In this document: piece after piece, positions 2,295 through 7,409 of the stretch
Numbering within the stretch: position 1 is the stretch's first letter
Layout: each line of letters starts with the position of its first letter
From: Clostridia bacterium
GTDB taxonomy: Bacteria > Bacillota_A > Clostridia > Oscillospirales > CAG-272
Assembly (NCBI GenBank): GCA_017959485.1
Contig: JAGDAM010000051.1
Span: 1 to 7,409, forward strand
Reading direction: 5' to 3'
Length of the DNA: 7,409 bases
Notes under the pieces: generated by a model
Databases searched by the model: none
Told to the model about the DNA's origin: nothing
The model's input: the letters and a program-made list of their open reading frames with translations, nothing else
Program-made: the position numbers and the translations under genes

Positions 2295-5075
2295 ATGAAA
2301 AGAATAATTAAACTTATTTTAGCCGCGGCGGCGCTCATCTTATGCCTCGCGGCGGCGGTGTTCGCGGTTTCCGCCGACAGCGGGGTGAAGATATCCGCGC
2401 GCGTCGGGTACTCCGGCTCGAATATTTTCTTAGGCAAACCGGTTCCGCTCTCCGTCACTCTCACGAACACCTCGGATAAGGAAATATCCGGGACGGTCAC
2501 GTTTTCTGTAGCTTCGCTCTGGGGCGTATTCGGAGGCTCGGGGTCGGAATCGACGGTGTCGCGCGGTTTCGTTCTTCCGGCGGGCGTCGAAAAAACGCTG
2601 GAGATACCGGTGTTCGGCCATTACTATGCGCAGAGTTCGACCGCGTTCACAGTCACCGTCTCGGACAGCCGCGGGAAGAAGCTCGCGGAGTCGTCCGGCA
2701 GCTTCACGATGTTCGCGGGGTCGGTCTTTCTGGCGGGATATGTAACCGAAAGCCAGAGCGACGCCTCCTTCGGCAAGGCACTGAAAGGTGTTACGACCAC
2801 GCAGGGAGCCGAAGTCGTTTTTGAAACACTGACGCCCGACGTCTTCCCGTCCGACGAAACGATGATGGGCGCTTTCAATATGCTGATTATCGGAGACGTC
2901 GATCTTTCCGCCTCCTCCTCCTTCTCGGAAAAGCAGATCGCTCTTATCAGGCAGTTTGCCGCCGACGGCGGAGCCGTCGTGCTCGGAATGGGGAACCGCG
3001 GAGCCGAGGCGTTGCGCATAATCGAGCCTTTCCTGTCGGCTGCGGCCTCGTCCGAGGTCAAAAAGGCGGGGACCGCGACTTTTGAGTCGCTTTCGTCTTA
3101 CTATTACGGATCAGTGAAGCCGGATTTTTCGAAGCCGATGGAAGTTTCGGTGCTCGAAGATCCCGCCTTCACCGAGGAGGACATCTGCTACCGCCACGGA
3201 GACTACAACATTGCCGTTCTTCGCTTCTCGCCCGCCGACCGGGCGGTAACCGACAGCCTCAGCAACCAGACCTACCTGTTCTCCCGCCTCGAATCCGAAC
3301 TGTATTCATCCGCGAAGGGCAGTTATTACTACGGTCTGAACAACGCTTTCGTTACCGACGACGCGGCGGACCGCTCTCCGTCCGCGTTGGTAATTCTGAT
3401 CTTTATGGGCGCGTATATCGGACTCGGGATAATTCTGGTGTTCGGCCTTCTCCTCAAAAAGAAGCTTGAAAAATGGACCTGGGTCGGAATACCGGCCGCC
3501 GCTGTGCTGTTTTCGCTCCTGTTCATAGTTTACGGAGCGGTCAGACGGGGCGGAGACACAGCCTCGACCGTGACCTTTGTCAATCTCAACGAGACTGGAC
3601 GCAACCGCGCCGAAACGATTGCCGGAATCTACGCCGCGAACGGCGGCAAGTACAGTATTTCCCTCGGAGGCTCCGACCGTATCGCGGTTTGGGGCGGAAA
3701 CGCGCCGCTGACCGGAGTCTCGGCGACCGCGGGTGACGTCTCTTACGGAGACGCCGCGGTGCACGAACTGTCGGGTGTTACAAAGGACACCTATATAATC
3801 AGCGCCTGCGACTATACCGACACCTCGTACAAAACACTGACGACCTCGATTACAAAAACCACGGAGTCGGGAAAAGAAAAAGTAACCATCCGTCTTACCA
3901 ATACGTCGGGCAGAGACCTTACCGGAGTTTTCCTTTACAACGGATTTACCTATCTTTCGGTCGGAGATCTCGCGGCGGGTGCCGTGACGGATATTGACGT
4001 TTCCTCGCTGCTCGGTGTCGGCCTCGTTTCCGTCAACGACGGACTTGACGACCTGCTCTACGACGCCTGTTTCTCAAAAGCCGGACTTCCACGCGAGAAC
4101 GCGGAGAATCTGGCCGATACATTCAGAAATTCCGGAAGATACTATTATTACACAAACACAAGCGATTTCGACAGCTACTTCGGCCTGAGAAAGAAACGCA
4201 CAGCCGATCTTTATCGCCGCGCGATGACGATAGAACAGCTTCCGAGCATTCTCTATAACAGCTTTAACTACACCCCGGTGTCGAATTCGGGCGTACGTCT
4301 CTGGATTGTGGCCTTCGACCCGGACAGCCGTTCGGACGTCGTTATCAACGGCAAAAAGCTTTCGCGCACGTCCGGGGAAACGGTTCTGATCCAGCGGGTG
4401 AAGACGGAGGGGATTACCGGCATTTCAGCAGACCCCGTCGAATTTAGTTCGCTTGGATATTTCGCGACGAAAAGTGCCGCGGTATCGGGAAACCTCGTCA
4501 ATTCTCTGTATGAAGAAGGCGGCGGTATCAAGTGCGCGGTGATTCCGCTTGTGACGGACGGAGACGCAAACATGCTTGCCGACGGGGTAATCGGGCGCCT
4601 GGCGCTTACCTTCTCGGGAATCGACGAAGAATGTCCTCCCGCGGTTTATATAGTTAGCGGCATCAACAGCAAGTATTACAGCGATTCGTCCGCGTATTCC
4701 ACGGGTATTTCGGAGGGCGCGAAGTGCCTCTTCCGGAACGTTTCCGCCGGTGACGTTTTCATTACCCGCGATTATGACTGGGACTCTTACGGCTACTACT
4801 CAAAGTCTTTCAAGATTTCGGAAGACGGCCTGTACGGGGATTACGGATTCTGGCTGTCCCGGAATCAGTCGGACGTGAATCTCGGCCTGTCGATAACAGA
4901 CGACCGGCTGAAAGACGCGACGGGGGCGATGCTTCTGCTGCTTGTCTGGGACGCCGAAAGTGTAAAAAAGGCGGGCCGGGATATTCCGCTGCCGGTTCTT
5001 GAATCGGCGGAATTCACACCCCAGGGAATACAGTACCGGCAGAATATGTCGGACTGGGAAATTGTTGTTTATTGA
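2295..5075 (+). CDS. Large membrane-anchored surface protein with GATase/Rossmann-like domain, ABC-exporter partner
   Basis: A 926-residue protein of unknown function. Residues 1-27 are a signal peptide (MKR, a long Ala/Leu core, likely cleavage after VSA). There is no lipobox around Cys17. Residues about 30-135 read as an Ig-like beta domain (VPLSVTLTNTSDKEISGTV). Residues about 145-260 look like a Rossmann or class-I-glutamine-amidotransferase-like fold: AGYVTES, FNMLIIGDVDL (194-204), then RQFAADGGAVVLG ending near 231. The catalytic Cys of true amidotransferases is absent, so a binding role is likelier. Two membrane helices follow, about 364-387 and 396-416, separated by KKKLEKW, which should be the cytoplasmic turn. 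The last 500 residues are then extracellular, beta-rich and Tyr/Ser-rich, starting with TVTFVNLNETG. The gene sits 15 nt before the ABC ATPase gene, so it is probably an accessory or substrate-handling subunit, by analogy with the GldG-type auxiliary domains of ABC-2 systems. That role is inferred. Confidence 0.85.
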   Translation: MKRIIKLILAAAALILCLAAAVFAVSADSGVKISARVGYSGSNIFLGKPVPLSVTLTNTSDKEISGTVTFSVASLWGVFGGSGSESTVSRGFVLPAGVEKTLEIPVFGHYYAQSSTAFTVTVSDSRGKKLAESSGSFTMFAGSVFLAGYVTESQSDASFGKALKGVTTTQGAEVVFETLTPDVFPSDETMMGAFNMLIIGDVDLSASSSFSEKQIALIRQFAADGGAVVLGMGNRGAEALRIIEPFLSAAASSEVKKAGTATFESLSSYYYGSVKPDFSKPMEVSVLEDPAFTEEDICYRHGDYNIAVLRFSPADRAVTDSLSNQTYLFSRLESELYSSAKGSYYYGLNNAFVTDDAADRSPSALVILIFMGAYIGLGIILVFGLLLKKKLEKWTWVGIPAAAVLFSLLFIVYGAVRRGGDTASTVTFVNLNETGRNRAETIAGIYAANGGKYSISLGGSDRIAVWGGNAPLTGVSATAGDVSYGDAAVHELSGVTKDTYIISACDYTDTSYKTLTTSITKTTESGKEKVTIRLTNTSGRDLTGVFLYNGFTYLSVGDLAAGAVTDIDVSSLLGVGLVSVNDGLDDLLYDACFSKAGLPRENAENLADTFRNSGRYYYYTNTSDFDSYFGLRKKRTADLYRRAMTIEQLPSILYNSFNYTPVSNSGVRLWIVAFDPDSRSDVVINGKKLSRTSGETVLIQRVKTEGITGISADPVEFSSLGYFATKSAAVSGNLVNSLYEEGGGIKCAVIPLVTDGDANMLADGVIGRLALTFSGIDEECPPAVYIVSGINSKYYSDSSAYSTGISEGAKCLFRNVSAGDVFITRDYDWDSYGYYSKSFKISEDGLYGDYGFWLSRNQSDVNLGLSITDDRLKDATGAMLLLLVWDAESVKKAGRDIPLPVLESAEFTPQGIQYRQNMSDWEIVVY

Positions 5076-5090
5076 ACGGGAGGGACCGGA

Positions 5091-6032
5091 ATGCTTTTAA
5101 GAACCGAAAAACTTACAAAGCTGTACGGAATTTTCCGTGCGCTTAACGATCTCGATATGACGATTGACCGCGAGTCGATCGTGGGCTTCGTCGGACCGAA
5201 CGGGGCGGGGAAGACTACGGCGATGAGGATCATCTCGACCCTGATGCCGGCCTGGTCGGGAGAGGTTTATATCAACGATGAACCGATCTGGAAAGACGTT
5301 CGCGCGTCGCGCCGGGCAATCGGGTTCGTTCCCGACTATTTCGGGGTATACAACGCGATATCCTCGGTCGAATATCTCGATTACTACGCCGACCTGAACT
5401 CGATTCCCCGCGACGGACGCAGGACGCTCATCTCGGACATGCTTGAGCTTGTCAATCTGTCCGACAAGGCGGACACGAACGTGAACACGCTCTCCCGCGG
5501 AATGAAGCAGCGCCTCTGCCTCGCGCGCTGCCTTCTGCACGATCCGCAGCTTTTGATTCTCGACGAGCCCGCTTCGGGTCTCGATCCTCAGGCGAGAGCC
5601 GACCTGAAGTACATTCTCCGCGCCCTGCGCGATCAGGGCAAGGCGATTTTGATCAGTTCGCACATCCTTCCCGAACTCGGCGAGTTCTGCGACAAGGTCG
5701 TCATACTCAACAAGGGCAAAAAGGTTGCCGACGGAACGATCGAAGAGATCAGCGAAATGATCGGAGAAAAGACCAAGATATCCTACACACTTGTCGGAGA
5801 CGAGGACTTTGAGCTTGCCGTCGGAGCGGCGAGATCGGCCGGAGTTGACGGCGAGATCATACGCGACGGAATGGTGCTCGAGGTCGAGTATTCCGGAGGC
5901 GACGCCGCTATCGCCGATCTGACGCGCCGGATGGTTCTTTCGGGCGTCAGGATCGTGACCGTCGACCGTACCCGCCGCACACTGGAGCAGGTCTTCTTAG
6001 AGGTTATTGACAATGATAAAAAGTCTGAGTAA
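5091..6032 (+). CDS. ABC-2-type transporter ATP-binding protein
   Basis: This is the ATPase subunit of an exporter, expected at the inner face of the membrane as a dimer bound to the permease encoded next. In 313 residues it shows the A-loop Tyr12, Walker A GPNGAGKTT (35-43), signature LSRGMKQRL (134-142), Walker B LLILDEP with catalytic Glu159, D-loop SGLDP (162-166) and H-loop His191 in SSH. The Q-loop position reads IGFVPDYFG, with Asp82 where many ABC proteins have Gln; Glu or Asp there is seen in ABC-2/NatA/Gld-like branches. Residues about 220-313 form the extra C-terminal domain of such subunits, ending in the typical EQVFLEVI. The strong ribosome binding site GGGAGGG (5078-5084) lies 6 nt before the ATG. 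The 3' end overlaps the permease gene by 20 nt, which implies translational coupling. The transported substrate cannot be read from the sequence. Confidence 0.95.
   Translation: MLLRTEKLTKLYGIFRALNDLDMTIDRESIVGFVGPNGAGKTTAMRIISTLMPAWSGEVYINDEPIWKDVRASRRAIGFVPDYFGVYNAISSVEYLDYYADLNSIPRDGRRTLISDMLELVNLSDKADTNVNTLSRGMKQRLCLARCLLHDPQLLILDEPASGLDPQARADLKYILRALRDQGKAILISSHILPELGEFCDKVVILNKGKKVADGTIEEISEMIGEKTKISYTLVGDEDFELAVGAARSAGVDGEIIRDGMVLEVEYSGGDAAIADLTRRMVLSGVRIVTVDRTRRTLEQVFLEVIDNDKKSE
5999..6003 (+). promoter_or_regulatory. Ribosome binding site fixing the permease start
   Basis: AGAGG lies within the end of the ATPase gene, 9 nt before ATG 6013. An in-frame TTG at 6007 would leave only 3 nt of spacing, so ATG 6013 is preferred. 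Confidence 0.6.
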
Positions 6033-6999
6033 AAACGCGATACTGTCCTTCGGCATGAGGATGACGATGAAGAAGAAGGGCTCCGCCGTTCTTCTCTCGG
6101 TTATTTCCGGAGTGACGACGCTCATCTTCGTAATTACCGTGCTCTCGATGAAGGCTTCGGGCAGCGACGTGTCGGATTTCGCACAAGCAGGCAAAGTGCT
6201 CTTCTACGTACTGATGGCGCTGCATATGATCCTGGGCGTCTTTATCACGCCCGCGGTCGCAGGGACCGCGATATCCTCCGAGCGCGAAAAGCAGACGATG
6301 GACCTTCTGCTCTGCTCGCAGATGATGCCCCGCGACGTGGTGATTGGAAAGTTCCTTTCCTCGATAAGCTGGGTGATGCTGGTTTCGGTGTCGCTGCTGC
6401 CATCGTACAGCGTCATCTATATGATCGGAGGCGTTCCCGCCCGGGCGATAATCTTCTCGCTTCTCTACATTATGTGGCTGACCGCGGCCATGGCGACCTT
6501 TGCGATCTTTTTCTCCTCGGTAATGAGAAGATCCGCCGGAGCCGTCGTGGTCACCTACGTAGTGCTGTTCGGAATAGTTTCGCTGAATTTCTCGGCGATT
6601 GCCGGGTACTACGGACTTATCGGTCTTATGCAGAGCATTTATAACAGTATGCACGGCTACGCGGCCATCACTACGCCGTTCGACTGGGTGGACAAATTTA
6701 TCTGCCCGCTGGCGTGGATTAATCCGGTTATCGGGTTTATCGTCGTGCTGGTCGGCAGCATGGAGGGAGTCTCCGATATCGCCGACCTGCTCTTCGGGAT
6801 GATGACCAACAATATGACCCTCGACGCGATTCTGATTCTCGTCGGGAATCTGGTCTTCTACACGCTGATCGGATTATTCATGCTGCGCCTCGCGGCCCGC
6901 GCCGTCGATCCTCTCCGCCCCCCGCGGAAAGAGGAAAAGATGAGGAAAAAGCAGGCCAAAGCGGCGAGAGCGGCGAGAGCGGCGGAGCCGGTGCAGTAA
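6013..6999 (+). CDS. ABC-2-type transporter permease
   Basis: This is the membrane subunit that pairs with the preceding ATPase; 328 residues from ATG 6013. Hydrophobic segments lie at about 24-45, 62-86, 117-138, 145-169, 175-195 and near the C-terminus at about 276-298, with a weaker one near 235-250 that may be re-entrant or membrane-edge. That fits the usual six-helix ABC-2 fold. Between helices 2 and 3 is SSEREKQTMDLLLCSQMMPRD (about 88-108) followed by GK, the ABC-2 cytoplasmic coupling segment (consensus ERE+gTle.Ll..P). The C-terminus is a strongly basic tail from about 302 to 328 (PRKEEKMRKKQAKAARAARAAEPVQ) that contains a 9-nt coding repeat. The 20-nt overlap with the ATPase gene supports coupled synthesis in fixed ratio. 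The substrate is unknown; the large surface protein upstream suggests a surface or envelope-related cargo, but that is inference. Confidence 0.92.
   Translation: MIKSLSKNAILSFGMRMTMKKKGSAVLLSVISGVTTLIFVITVLSMKASGSDVSDFAQAGKVLFYVLMALHMILGVFITPAVAGTAISSEREKQTMDLLLCSQMMPRDVVIGKFLSSISWVMLVSVSLLPSYSVIYMIGGVPARAIIFSLLYIMWLTAAMATFAIFFSSVMRRSAGAVVVTYVVLFGIVSLNFSAIAGYYGLIGLMQSIYNSMHGYAAITTPFDWVDKFICPLAWINPVIGFIVVLVGSMEGVSDIADLLFGMMTNNMTLDAILILVGNLVFYTLIGLFMLRLAARAVDPLRPPRKEEKMRKKQAKAARAARAAEPVQ
6961..6987 (+). repeat. Short coding repeat in permease tail
   Basis: GCGGCGAGA occurs twice in tandem (6961-6969, 6970-6978), followed by a diverged third unit GCGGCGGAG. It encodes the AAR/AAE pattern of the basic C-terminal tail. 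A replication-slippage origin is likely. Confidence 0.6.
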
Positions 7000-7074
7000 T
7001 ACTAATCCTCAGACCGGCGCTTTATTGTCACAATACGCGCAGCGTATATCATATTTGCGCAGCAAATACATCAT

Positions 7075-7120
7075 ATTCGAGCGTGAGCGAGAATATATCA
7101 TCCGCGAGTGAAACGAGCGG
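7075..7120 (+). repeat. Hairpins H4 and H5 with paired GA/GA internal mismatches
   Basis: H4 (7075-7094) is ATTC-GA-GC, loop GTGA, GC-GA-GAAT. H5 (7102-7120) is CCGC-GA-GT, loop GAA, AC-GA-GCGG. In both, an outer stem of at least 4 bp is followed by GA opposite GA, which can form tandem sheared G-A pairs, then 2 bp and a G...A-type loop. The shared plan despite different stems marks them as the same structural class. ATATCAT separates them (7095-7101). Confidence 0.65.
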
Positions 7121-7173
7121 ATATCATTCCGAGGCGACCCTCGTGTTGTCAGAGGGGATTGCCTTAATGATAT
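7121..7173. repeat. Central large hairpin of the repeat unit (H6)
   Basis: ATATCATT (7121-7128) and AATGATAT (7166-7173) are perfect 8-nt inverted repeats. Inside them AGGC (7132-7135) pairs with GCCT (7161-7164) and CCCTC (7138-7142) with GAGGG (7152-7156), leaving a 9-nt loop (GTGTTGTCA) and an internal loop GA/GATT. This is the point where the tag orientation flips, so it is the symmetry centre of the unit. Confidence 0.7.
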
Positions 7174-7188
7174 CGCGCTTCGCGCGAT

Positions 7189-7232
7189 GATATTCGTCCT
7201 GCGGACGAATGATATCCGTCCTGCGGCCGGAT
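7189..7232. repeat. 22-nt tandem hairpin modules (H8/H9)
   Basis: Two adjacent 22-nt units (7189-7210 and 7211-7232) share 19 of 22 positions. T7194/A7208 in the first is C7216/G7230 in the second, so a T-A pair is replaced by a C-G pair; the third difference (A7205 to C7227) leaves one T-C mismatch. Both loops are TGC. The modules look like duplicates of one another whose stems have been kept paired. Confidence 0.8.
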
Positions 7233-7263
7233 GATATTCCGCGGCACCGCCGCGGAGTGAAAA

Positions 7264-7409
7264 TATTGTCACAATACGCGCAGCGTATATCATATTTGCG
7301 TAGCAAATACATCATATTCGAGCGTGAGCGAGAATATATCATCCGCGAGTGAAACGAGCGGATATCATTCCGAGGCGACCCTCGTGTTGTCAGAGGGGAT
7401 TGCCTTAAT
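7264..7409. repeat. Hairpin-chain repeat unit, second copy, cut by the window edge
   Basis: Positions 7264-7409 repeat 7023-7168 at an offset of exactly 241 nt with one difference, C7060 to T7301. That change lies in the middle of the H3 triloop (GCA to GTA), so the stem is untouched. The copy is still identical at the last base of the window, so the array probably continues. The mismatch argues that this is a real tandem duplication rather than an overlap artefact of a circularised or duplicated contig end. Confidence 0.93.

Follow-up and report, generated by a model that had tools for sequence, protein, structure and literature searches.

A chain of hairpins joined by a repeated seven-letter tag at the end of a clostridial contig looks like one copy of an undescribed bacterial element

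REPIN and BIME elements, which go with RAYT transposases, are short tagged palindromes that are dispersed and have a partner gene; the hallmark of the REP/REPIN–RAYT system is a short tag of the GTAG type adjoining one conserved palindrome. MITEs are short, gene-less sequences present as dispersed copies with shared ends, and the STRR heptanucleotide repeats of cyanobacteria are tandem heptamers. The protein family PF05635 is a four-helix bundle for which we know of no enzyme activity. Together with an S23/IVP (PF05635) ORF, the intervening sequences (IVS) of rRNA genes form compact elements that have been called selfish and horizontally acquired (PMC4990558, PMC11270868); the former term has been applied to the Coxiella rRNA IVS (PMC4990558), and in CPR rRNA genes the IVP ORFs are described as scattered over several insertion sites (PMC11270868). 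Avd, a protein that resembles PF05635, belongs to reverse transcriptase (RT) machinery (PMC10053308), and PF05635 genes have been reported in cas loci (PMC3936711). Our literature searches of open-licence PMC papers found no link of PF05635 to heptamer or hairpin arrays.

The arrays described here share features with each of these systems. As in the IVS of 23S and 16S rRNA, a PF05635 ORF lies in a compact element, but the elements occupy sites between protein and tRNA genes, outside rRNA, and what defines them is an array of a 7-nt tag, with hairpins between the tags in the clade considered here. Like REPIN/BIME–RAYT systems they are short, tagged, palindromic and dispersed and have a partner gene, but there is no link to a Y1 transposase, and each half contains three to four different hairpins with one tag. 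They resemble MITEs in being short, gene-less and dispersed with shared ends, and differ in that no clear target-site duplication was seen (eight copies in one genome and one filled/empty site) and in that the gene-bearing form carries PF05635; to our knowledge, these arrays have no parent transposase. Tandem heptamers at PF05635 loci recall the cyanobacterial STRR, and the partner of the arrays is what Avd of diversity-generating retroelements (DGRs) resembles.

The stretch of DNA analysed, hereafter the window, is a clostridial contig of 7,409 nt, the last 387 bases of which consist of two half-arrays in inverted orientation and, after them, a second copy that reaches the contig end (Table 1). 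Four hairpins joined by ATATCAT (with one variant, ACATCAT) precede a 39-nt centre, and four joined by ATGATAT follow it; since tag orientation flips at the centre, the two half-arrays of the unit are inverted with respect to each other. Positions 7023–7168 and 7264–7409 are 146-nt copies spaced by 241 nt with a single difference (7060 C, 7301 T), and the alignment of both copies bears out the 241-nt unit with one mismatch per 146 nt given in the initial annotation. As the contig stops within the second copy, the tandem copies visible here are one complete and one partial. The window has 10 occurrences of ATGATAT, both strands counted, and every one of them is within 7046–7368; the expected number for the window is 0.45, and none of 200 shuffles reaches 10. 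Folding of 7020–7263 compared with shuffles gave z = -6.0 as RNA and z = -6.1 as DNA; when the whole unit is folded at minimum energy, as RNA or as DNA, the stretches of hairpins 4 and 5 pair together and not locally. Perfect hairpins were found by script in the first unit at 7033–7047, 7052–7068, 7172–7188, 7192–7210, 7238–7256 and, short and central, at 7130–7143; 7075–7094 and 7216–7230 are hairpins with internal mismatches in the RNA fold, and the hairpin at 7102–7120 was read from the sequence, as was a small TATTG-TCA-CAATA palindrome at the array start. The earlier count of about ten hairpins per unit is a fair one, given eight tag-linked hairpins, a folded centre and the small starting palindrome.

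Table 1. Features of the array and its flank in the window.
Feature	Position	Strand	Basis
Complete 241-nt unit: four hairpins with ATATCAT-type tags, centre, four with ATGATAT tags	7023..7263		alignment, fold, tag count, script
Second copy, cut by contig end; 1 mismatch in 146 nt	7264..7409		alignment
Hairpin 1, ATACGC-GCA-GCGTAT	7033..7047		fold, script
Tag ATGATAT (ATATCAT on +)	7046..7052	-	tag count
Hairpin 2, TATTTGC-GCA-GCAAATA	7052..7068		fold, script
Variant tag ACATCAT (ATGATGT)	7068..7074	-	sequence
Hairpin 3, ATTC-GA-GC-GTGA-GC-GA-GAAT; tandem G.A mismatches, GNRA-like loop	7075..7094		sequence, fold
Tag ATGATAT	7095..7101	-	tag count
Hairpin 4, CCGC-GA...GA-GCGG	7102..7120		sequence; pairs with hairpin-5 region in whole-unit folds
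Tag ATGATAT	7121..7127	-	tag count
Centre, 39 nt, partly self-complementary; position of the PF05635 gene in gene-bearing relative L363	7128..7166		fold, script, L363 comparison
Tag ATGATAT	7167..7173	+	tag count
Hairpin 5, CGCGC-TTC-GCGCG	7174..7186		script; paired otherwise in whole-unit folds
Tag ATGATAT	7187..7193	+	tag count
Hairpin 6, TCGTCC-TGC-GGACGA	7194..7208		fold, script
Tag ATGATAT	7209..7215	+	tag count
Hairpin 7, CCGTCC-TGC-GGCCGG, one mismatch	7216..7230		fold, sequence
Tag ATGATAT	7231..7237	+	tag count
Hairpin 8, TCCGCGGC-ACC-GCCGCGGA	7238..7256		fold, script
ABC-2 type permease gene, host gene outside the element	6007..6999	+	Pfam by E-value, below curated cut-offs

The unit begins 23 bp after the stop codon of the permease gene, which, in a search of the order to which the array-bearing genome G015 belongs, had weak matches only (49 of 197 genomes, listed identities 21–33%). 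Hairpins 3 and 4 (7075–7120) have tandem G.A mismatches, and similar G.A-mismatch hairpins recur in arrays tagged TCGATAT, GCGATAT and ATGATG (L361, L364–L366, L329). No Rfam family, rRNA families included, matches the window at the gathering score; a match to a named family was the outcome that the initial annotation had set against its own proposal. BLASTN of 7000–7409 gave no match in phage and plasmid collections. An rRNA IVS was rejected as the array lies 3' of the ABC permease gene in a window with no rRNA match in Rfam, CRISPR because the tag is of 7 nt and the spacers are self-complementary (stems in 213 of 282 segments at relatives' loci), and REP/REPIN because the tag is a heptamer and the hairpins differ from each other, in place of one conserved palindrome. 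The several dispersed copies with unrelated flanks that characterize MITEs were found on relatives, and the inverted half-arrays with one tag that define the class proposed here, PF05635-associated inverted heptad elements, are present in the window array itself.

A search for pairs of tags that enclose a CCTGCGG hairpin tip recovered at least 119 stretches in GTDB species genomes and 3 viral contigs; the matches listed are mostly from gut Clostridia/Oscillospiraceae MAGs, and those in Chloroploca, Treponema, Marinilabilia and Methanobrevibacter are chance-like. Other copies in related Clostridia genomes, on which the initial annotation had made its proposal depend, are present: in 20 genomes picked for matching a narrower ATGATAT-array pattern, tag pairs occur in 20 of 20, with 1 to 70 in each and 0–1 per genome for a reversed-pattern control. 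Stems of at least 4 bp are formed by 213 of 282 distinct inter-tag segments (11 when shuffled) and stems of at least 5 bp by 152 (1 when shuffled). In the 13-nt segments (n = 32, preselected for a stem of 3), 28–32 of 32 are complementary at each position and all four pair types occur at three of four stem positions, which amounts to compensatory change. Loops of the form CT..CG lie on the ATGATAT strand in 131 of the 213 and are reversed in 4, a polarity that makes tag and hairpin one oriented unit.

A search for genes recurring beside arrays led to a family of about 115 aa that Pfam assigns to PF05635 ('23S_rRNA_IVP', four-helix bundle), one member of which matches PDB 2rld, a five-chain entry. 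Eleven PF05635-like ORFs are present among 120 loci found with the CCTGCGG pattern; of 110 arrays, 10 lie within 500 bp of such an ORF, each in a different locus, and the chance probability of this proximity is about 1e-7 under an assumed mean array length. Because the 10 arrays lie in 10 loci, 10 or more of the 11 ORFs have an array as neighbour. Most arrays are without such an ORF, as is expected if most copies are gene-less. PF05635 was found in 16 of the 20 array-bearing genomes at 57 places, 55 of them above cut-off, and ATGATAT pairs number 1–3 in the 4 genomes without it and 2–70 in the 16 with it (p = 0.006). One locus (L347) lacks the PF05635 domain by profile, leaving 56 of 57. The commonest flanking 7-mer occurs at least 6 times at 32 of 56 PF05635 loci and in 11 of 169 segments drawn at random from those genomes (p = 8e-15). 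Loci with tandem heptads or repeated tags number 44 of 56, as against 15 of 169 random segments, and chains of at least four hairpins are present at 21 of 57 as against 3 of 78. The flanking tags include ATGATAT, GTGATAT, TCGATAT, GCGATAT, GTGAAGT, ATGATG, ATGTAAT, TAGG and others.

At locus L363 of genome G015, the PF05635 gene is flanked by two half-arrays, one tagged ATATCAT and the other ATGATAT, and the order of the window array (ATATCAT half, short centre, ATGATAT half) is the L363 layout without the gene. When compared with 20 fetched regions of G015, the left half of L363 matches 13, the right half 12 and either of them 16, which the shared tags explain in part. At many other PF05635 loci, the whole double array is just upstream of the gene. 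No PF05635-like ORF is present on the 7.4-kb contig of the window, so that relatives are the source from which the partner is inferred. Against all collected loci, the unit gave 11 weak BLASTN matches, and one of the best two, L375, adjoins a PF05635 remnant that is below the profile cut-off. At L369 1000–4800 (G005:C19), a series of array, gene, array, gene, array and PF05635 lies behind a tRNA cluster; the related genome G216 is without the series and has a different terminator.

Mobility can be followed in relatives. In genome G017, eight arrays of a sister family tagged GTGAAGT are near identical over about 300 bp, and their flanks do not align; the shared part has the hairpin ATCATAATTT...AAATTATGAT at both ends. 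A search of four other genomes gave no occurrence of the terminal hairpin TCATAATTT..AAATTATGA; in G017 it was found at 33 places, both as pairs about 270–280 bp apart and unpaired, and the nearest longer interval (C20, 859 bp) encloses an ordinary-looking gene, which we take to be rsmI-like. This hairpin was found where GTGAAGT arrays end and, in one case (L469, about 200–311), next to an array tagged GCGATAT. Judged by eye, its arms at four ends (L464, L466, L468, L471) seem to match the host flank. An ATGATAT array at G015:C25 is absent from the orthologous site in the related species G239 and G241, where the flanks align at 75–84% and are separated by 51 and 53 bp as against about 300. A second site in four species of one genus is occupied by ATGATAT hairpins in G015, by inverted GGAATGC heptads in G239 and G241 and by GCTAAA-tagged hairpins in G245; the heptads that replace the hairpin array are at L449 6063–6317 and L451 2612–2827. 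A target-site duplication was not clear in any of the eight G017 copies, and ACAAAT is a possible one at one filled/empty site. Most of the G015 arrays that were fetched stand alone in intergenic DNA, some following stop codons and others preceding genes. The dispersed sister-tag copies, the empty orthologous site and the array swaps favour, on relatives, the earlier proposal of a dedicated element or non-autonomous transposable element; its suggestion of a HUH transposase did not hold up, as detailed below.

Linkage of PF05635 to heptamers extends to other phyla. Three extra genomes, reached via L173, L125 and L148, are those of Marinilabilia salmonicolor, Candidatus Chloroploca and a Bacillota MAG; strong lag-7 repeats are present at 10 of their 13 PF05635 loci and in 23 of 192 segments chosen at random from these genomes, and lags 4–6 and 8–12 show 0 or 1 of 13. 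PF05635 occurs in 75 of 99 genomes of the Chloroploca phylum and 37 of 101 of the Marinilabilia phylum (74 and 34 above cut-off). A sample of 59 loci from these, each the best-scoring in its genome and so not random, was used to compare near and far flanks (L556 was too short, and a masked N run in the flank of L518 gives a false count at all lags). Lag-7 repeats are near the gene in 20 of 28 and far from it in 2 of 28 in the Chloroploca phylum; the difference is weak in the Marinilabilia phylum (10 of 30 near, 3 of 30 far, p = 0.06), where the repeats are more degenerate and lag 8 rises too (6 against 1 of 30). By eye, the upstream and downstream arrays in these phyla are often mutually inverted where both sides are clear.

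The tree of PF05635 proteins, based on 102 columns and rooted at the midpoint, has many weak forks; 53 rows were kept after exclusion of those shorter than 60 aa, and 4 of 12 proteins from the three extra genomes matched the profile and joined it. Tag labels, assigned by hand to 36 rows in 17 classes (17 rows, including the duplicate L336, are unlabelled), require 18 changes on the tree as against 27.5 ± 1.0 when shuffled, with 0 of 300 shuffles as low, and the genome label, used as a control, shows no clustering (41 against 40.5 changes). The presence or absence of bare period-7 arrays requires 2 changes as against 16.6 when shuffled. The main group of 53 rows contains 35 loci without bare heptads, a category that differs from the tag-hairpin class, and all of them fall in one clade with support 87. 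Under the midpoint root this clade is nested among bare-heptad proteins, and the order of array types that we infer is conditional on that root. By threshold, 12 of 56 loci fall in neither class; of these, L324, L337, L346, L348, L371 and L372 are tag-hairpin by eye, and the others were given no class. Counts of TCGATAT are highest in G014, G017 and G019, the three genomes with the cognate gene; with the gene's own locus left out they are 5, 16 and 6, and the group is still higher (p = 0.013), although no longer the top three. GTGAAGT arrays are likewise associated with their cognate gene (p = 0.009), and three genomes are GTGAAGT-rich without a PF05635 locus so labelled (G001, 27; G002, 25; G008, 15).

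These data bear on several other explanations. By eye, many arrays have an intrinsic terminator on one side and a promoter or ribosome-binding site on the other, and at several loci some tens of bases separate an array from the PF05635 ORF downstream of it, as might be anticipated if the arrays were RNA structures in transcribed leaders and trailers, bound by the PF05635 protein, which would control its neighbours and itself, with dispersal by recombination or duplication. Hairpin tips of the CT..CG kind, and the membership of the PF05635-resembling DGR protein Avd in RT machinery (PMC10053308), are compatible with such a role. We consider it unlikely, given the unrelated arrays at one site in related species, the other site that is empty in two of them, the near-identical copies in unrelated flanks and the arrays that follow stop codons as well as preceding genes. 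Movement as REP/REPIN-BIME elements by a RAYT (Y1, HUH) transposase is suggested by a layout reminiscent of inverted tagged hairpins and was the mobilisation put forward in the initial annotation. A Y1/HUH gene associated with copies was looked for in the 20 array-bearing genomes, and no association emerged: Y1_Tnp (PF01797) is present in 10 of the 20 without relation to array number (p = 0.86), was not found in the array-rich G006 and G012, and has the commonest flanking 7-mer at least 6 times at 1 of 18 loci, all of which renders this mechanism very improbable.

A by-product of mutation, in which template switching at replication forks makes hairpins and keeps them perfect and the PF05635 link reflects shared hot spots, would agree with stems that vary with compensatory changes and with the terminal hairpin arms that match the host flank, by eye, in the G017 copies L464, L466, L468 and L471. 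It leaves unexplained the single tag per array, the agreement of tags with the protein tree and the period-7 arrays at PF05635 in other phyla, and appears to us quite improbable. The G005 series behind a tRNA cluster brings to mind integron-like cassette sites (attC), an idea rendered scarcely credible by the mostly solitary, intergenic position of the fetched G015 arrays and by promoter-like sequences that follow the G005 arrays (by eye).

Our preferred reading, to which we give a probability of roughly two in three, is that 7023–7409 represents a gene-less, non-autonomous, MITE-like copy, with a tandem second copy, of a class of mobile elements partnered by PF05635. The class would consist of inverted arrays of one 7-nt tag, with the PF05635 gene between them, adjoining or absent; tags would abut (period 7) in several clades and alternate with small hairpins in one mainly clostridial clade, to which the window array probably belongs by its layout. 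Dispersal, presence/absence, PF05635 linkage, tag–tree agreement and oriented hairpins with compensatory changes are supported by observation on relatives.

As for mechanism, the PF05635 protein may bind the tag of its own arrays, with single-stranded DNA or RNA as the probable substrate, and thereby might bring the two inverted half-arrays together. Copying and joining could then be carried out by a host or trans-acting enzyme, be it a polymerase through template switching, a reverse transcriptase as with the Avd of DGRs, or a nuclease; we place this enzyme in the host or in trans, as neither the arrays nor the partner gene showed a gene of this kind. For gene-less copies, movement would be in trans. 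Loop polarity and the terminal hairpin arms extending, by eye, into host flank are hints of a folded single-stranded intermediate, and the place of Avd in RT machinery, together with the description of the Coxiella IVS as selfish, makes an RNA or cDNA route plausible. More broadly, and tentatively, at slightly worse than even odds, PF05635 proteins could be the specificity factors of cross-phylum mobile elements that lack an enzyme of their own, each lineage reading its own 7-nt word in inverted arrays and mobilising gene-bearing and gene-less copies via host machinery; one clostridial lineage would have turned bare heptads into tag-hairpin chains, and rRNA intervening sequences would be a special case. 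If this is true, a function is suggested for a large protein family whose name still refers to rRNA inserts, many of the anonymous tandem heptamer and hairpin arrays of gut and environmental genomes are explained, and a class without recognised transposase, recombinase or RT is added to the mobile elements. The association of protein clades with 7-nt tags of their own makes the protein–tag code directly testable by binding assays.

Several minor observations are recorded here. A looser pattern of three ATGATAT tags was swamped by chance matches in viral contigs; of 120 loci, only L017 and L080 have two inter-tag hairpins, and L070 has one weak hairpin. No PF05635-like ORF was found in the stretches L001–L121. 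In L017, an IMG/VR viral contig, a ATGATATGCA hairpin chain lies between genes at 8620–8750. In the window, 2295–5072 encodes a 926-aa protein without a Pfam match that adjoins ABC transporter genes. A leader motif like GACAAATTAGAATTTGTC recurs after promoter-like sequences, near arrays and elsewhere (L283, about 5990–6020; L128, L135, L139, L157).
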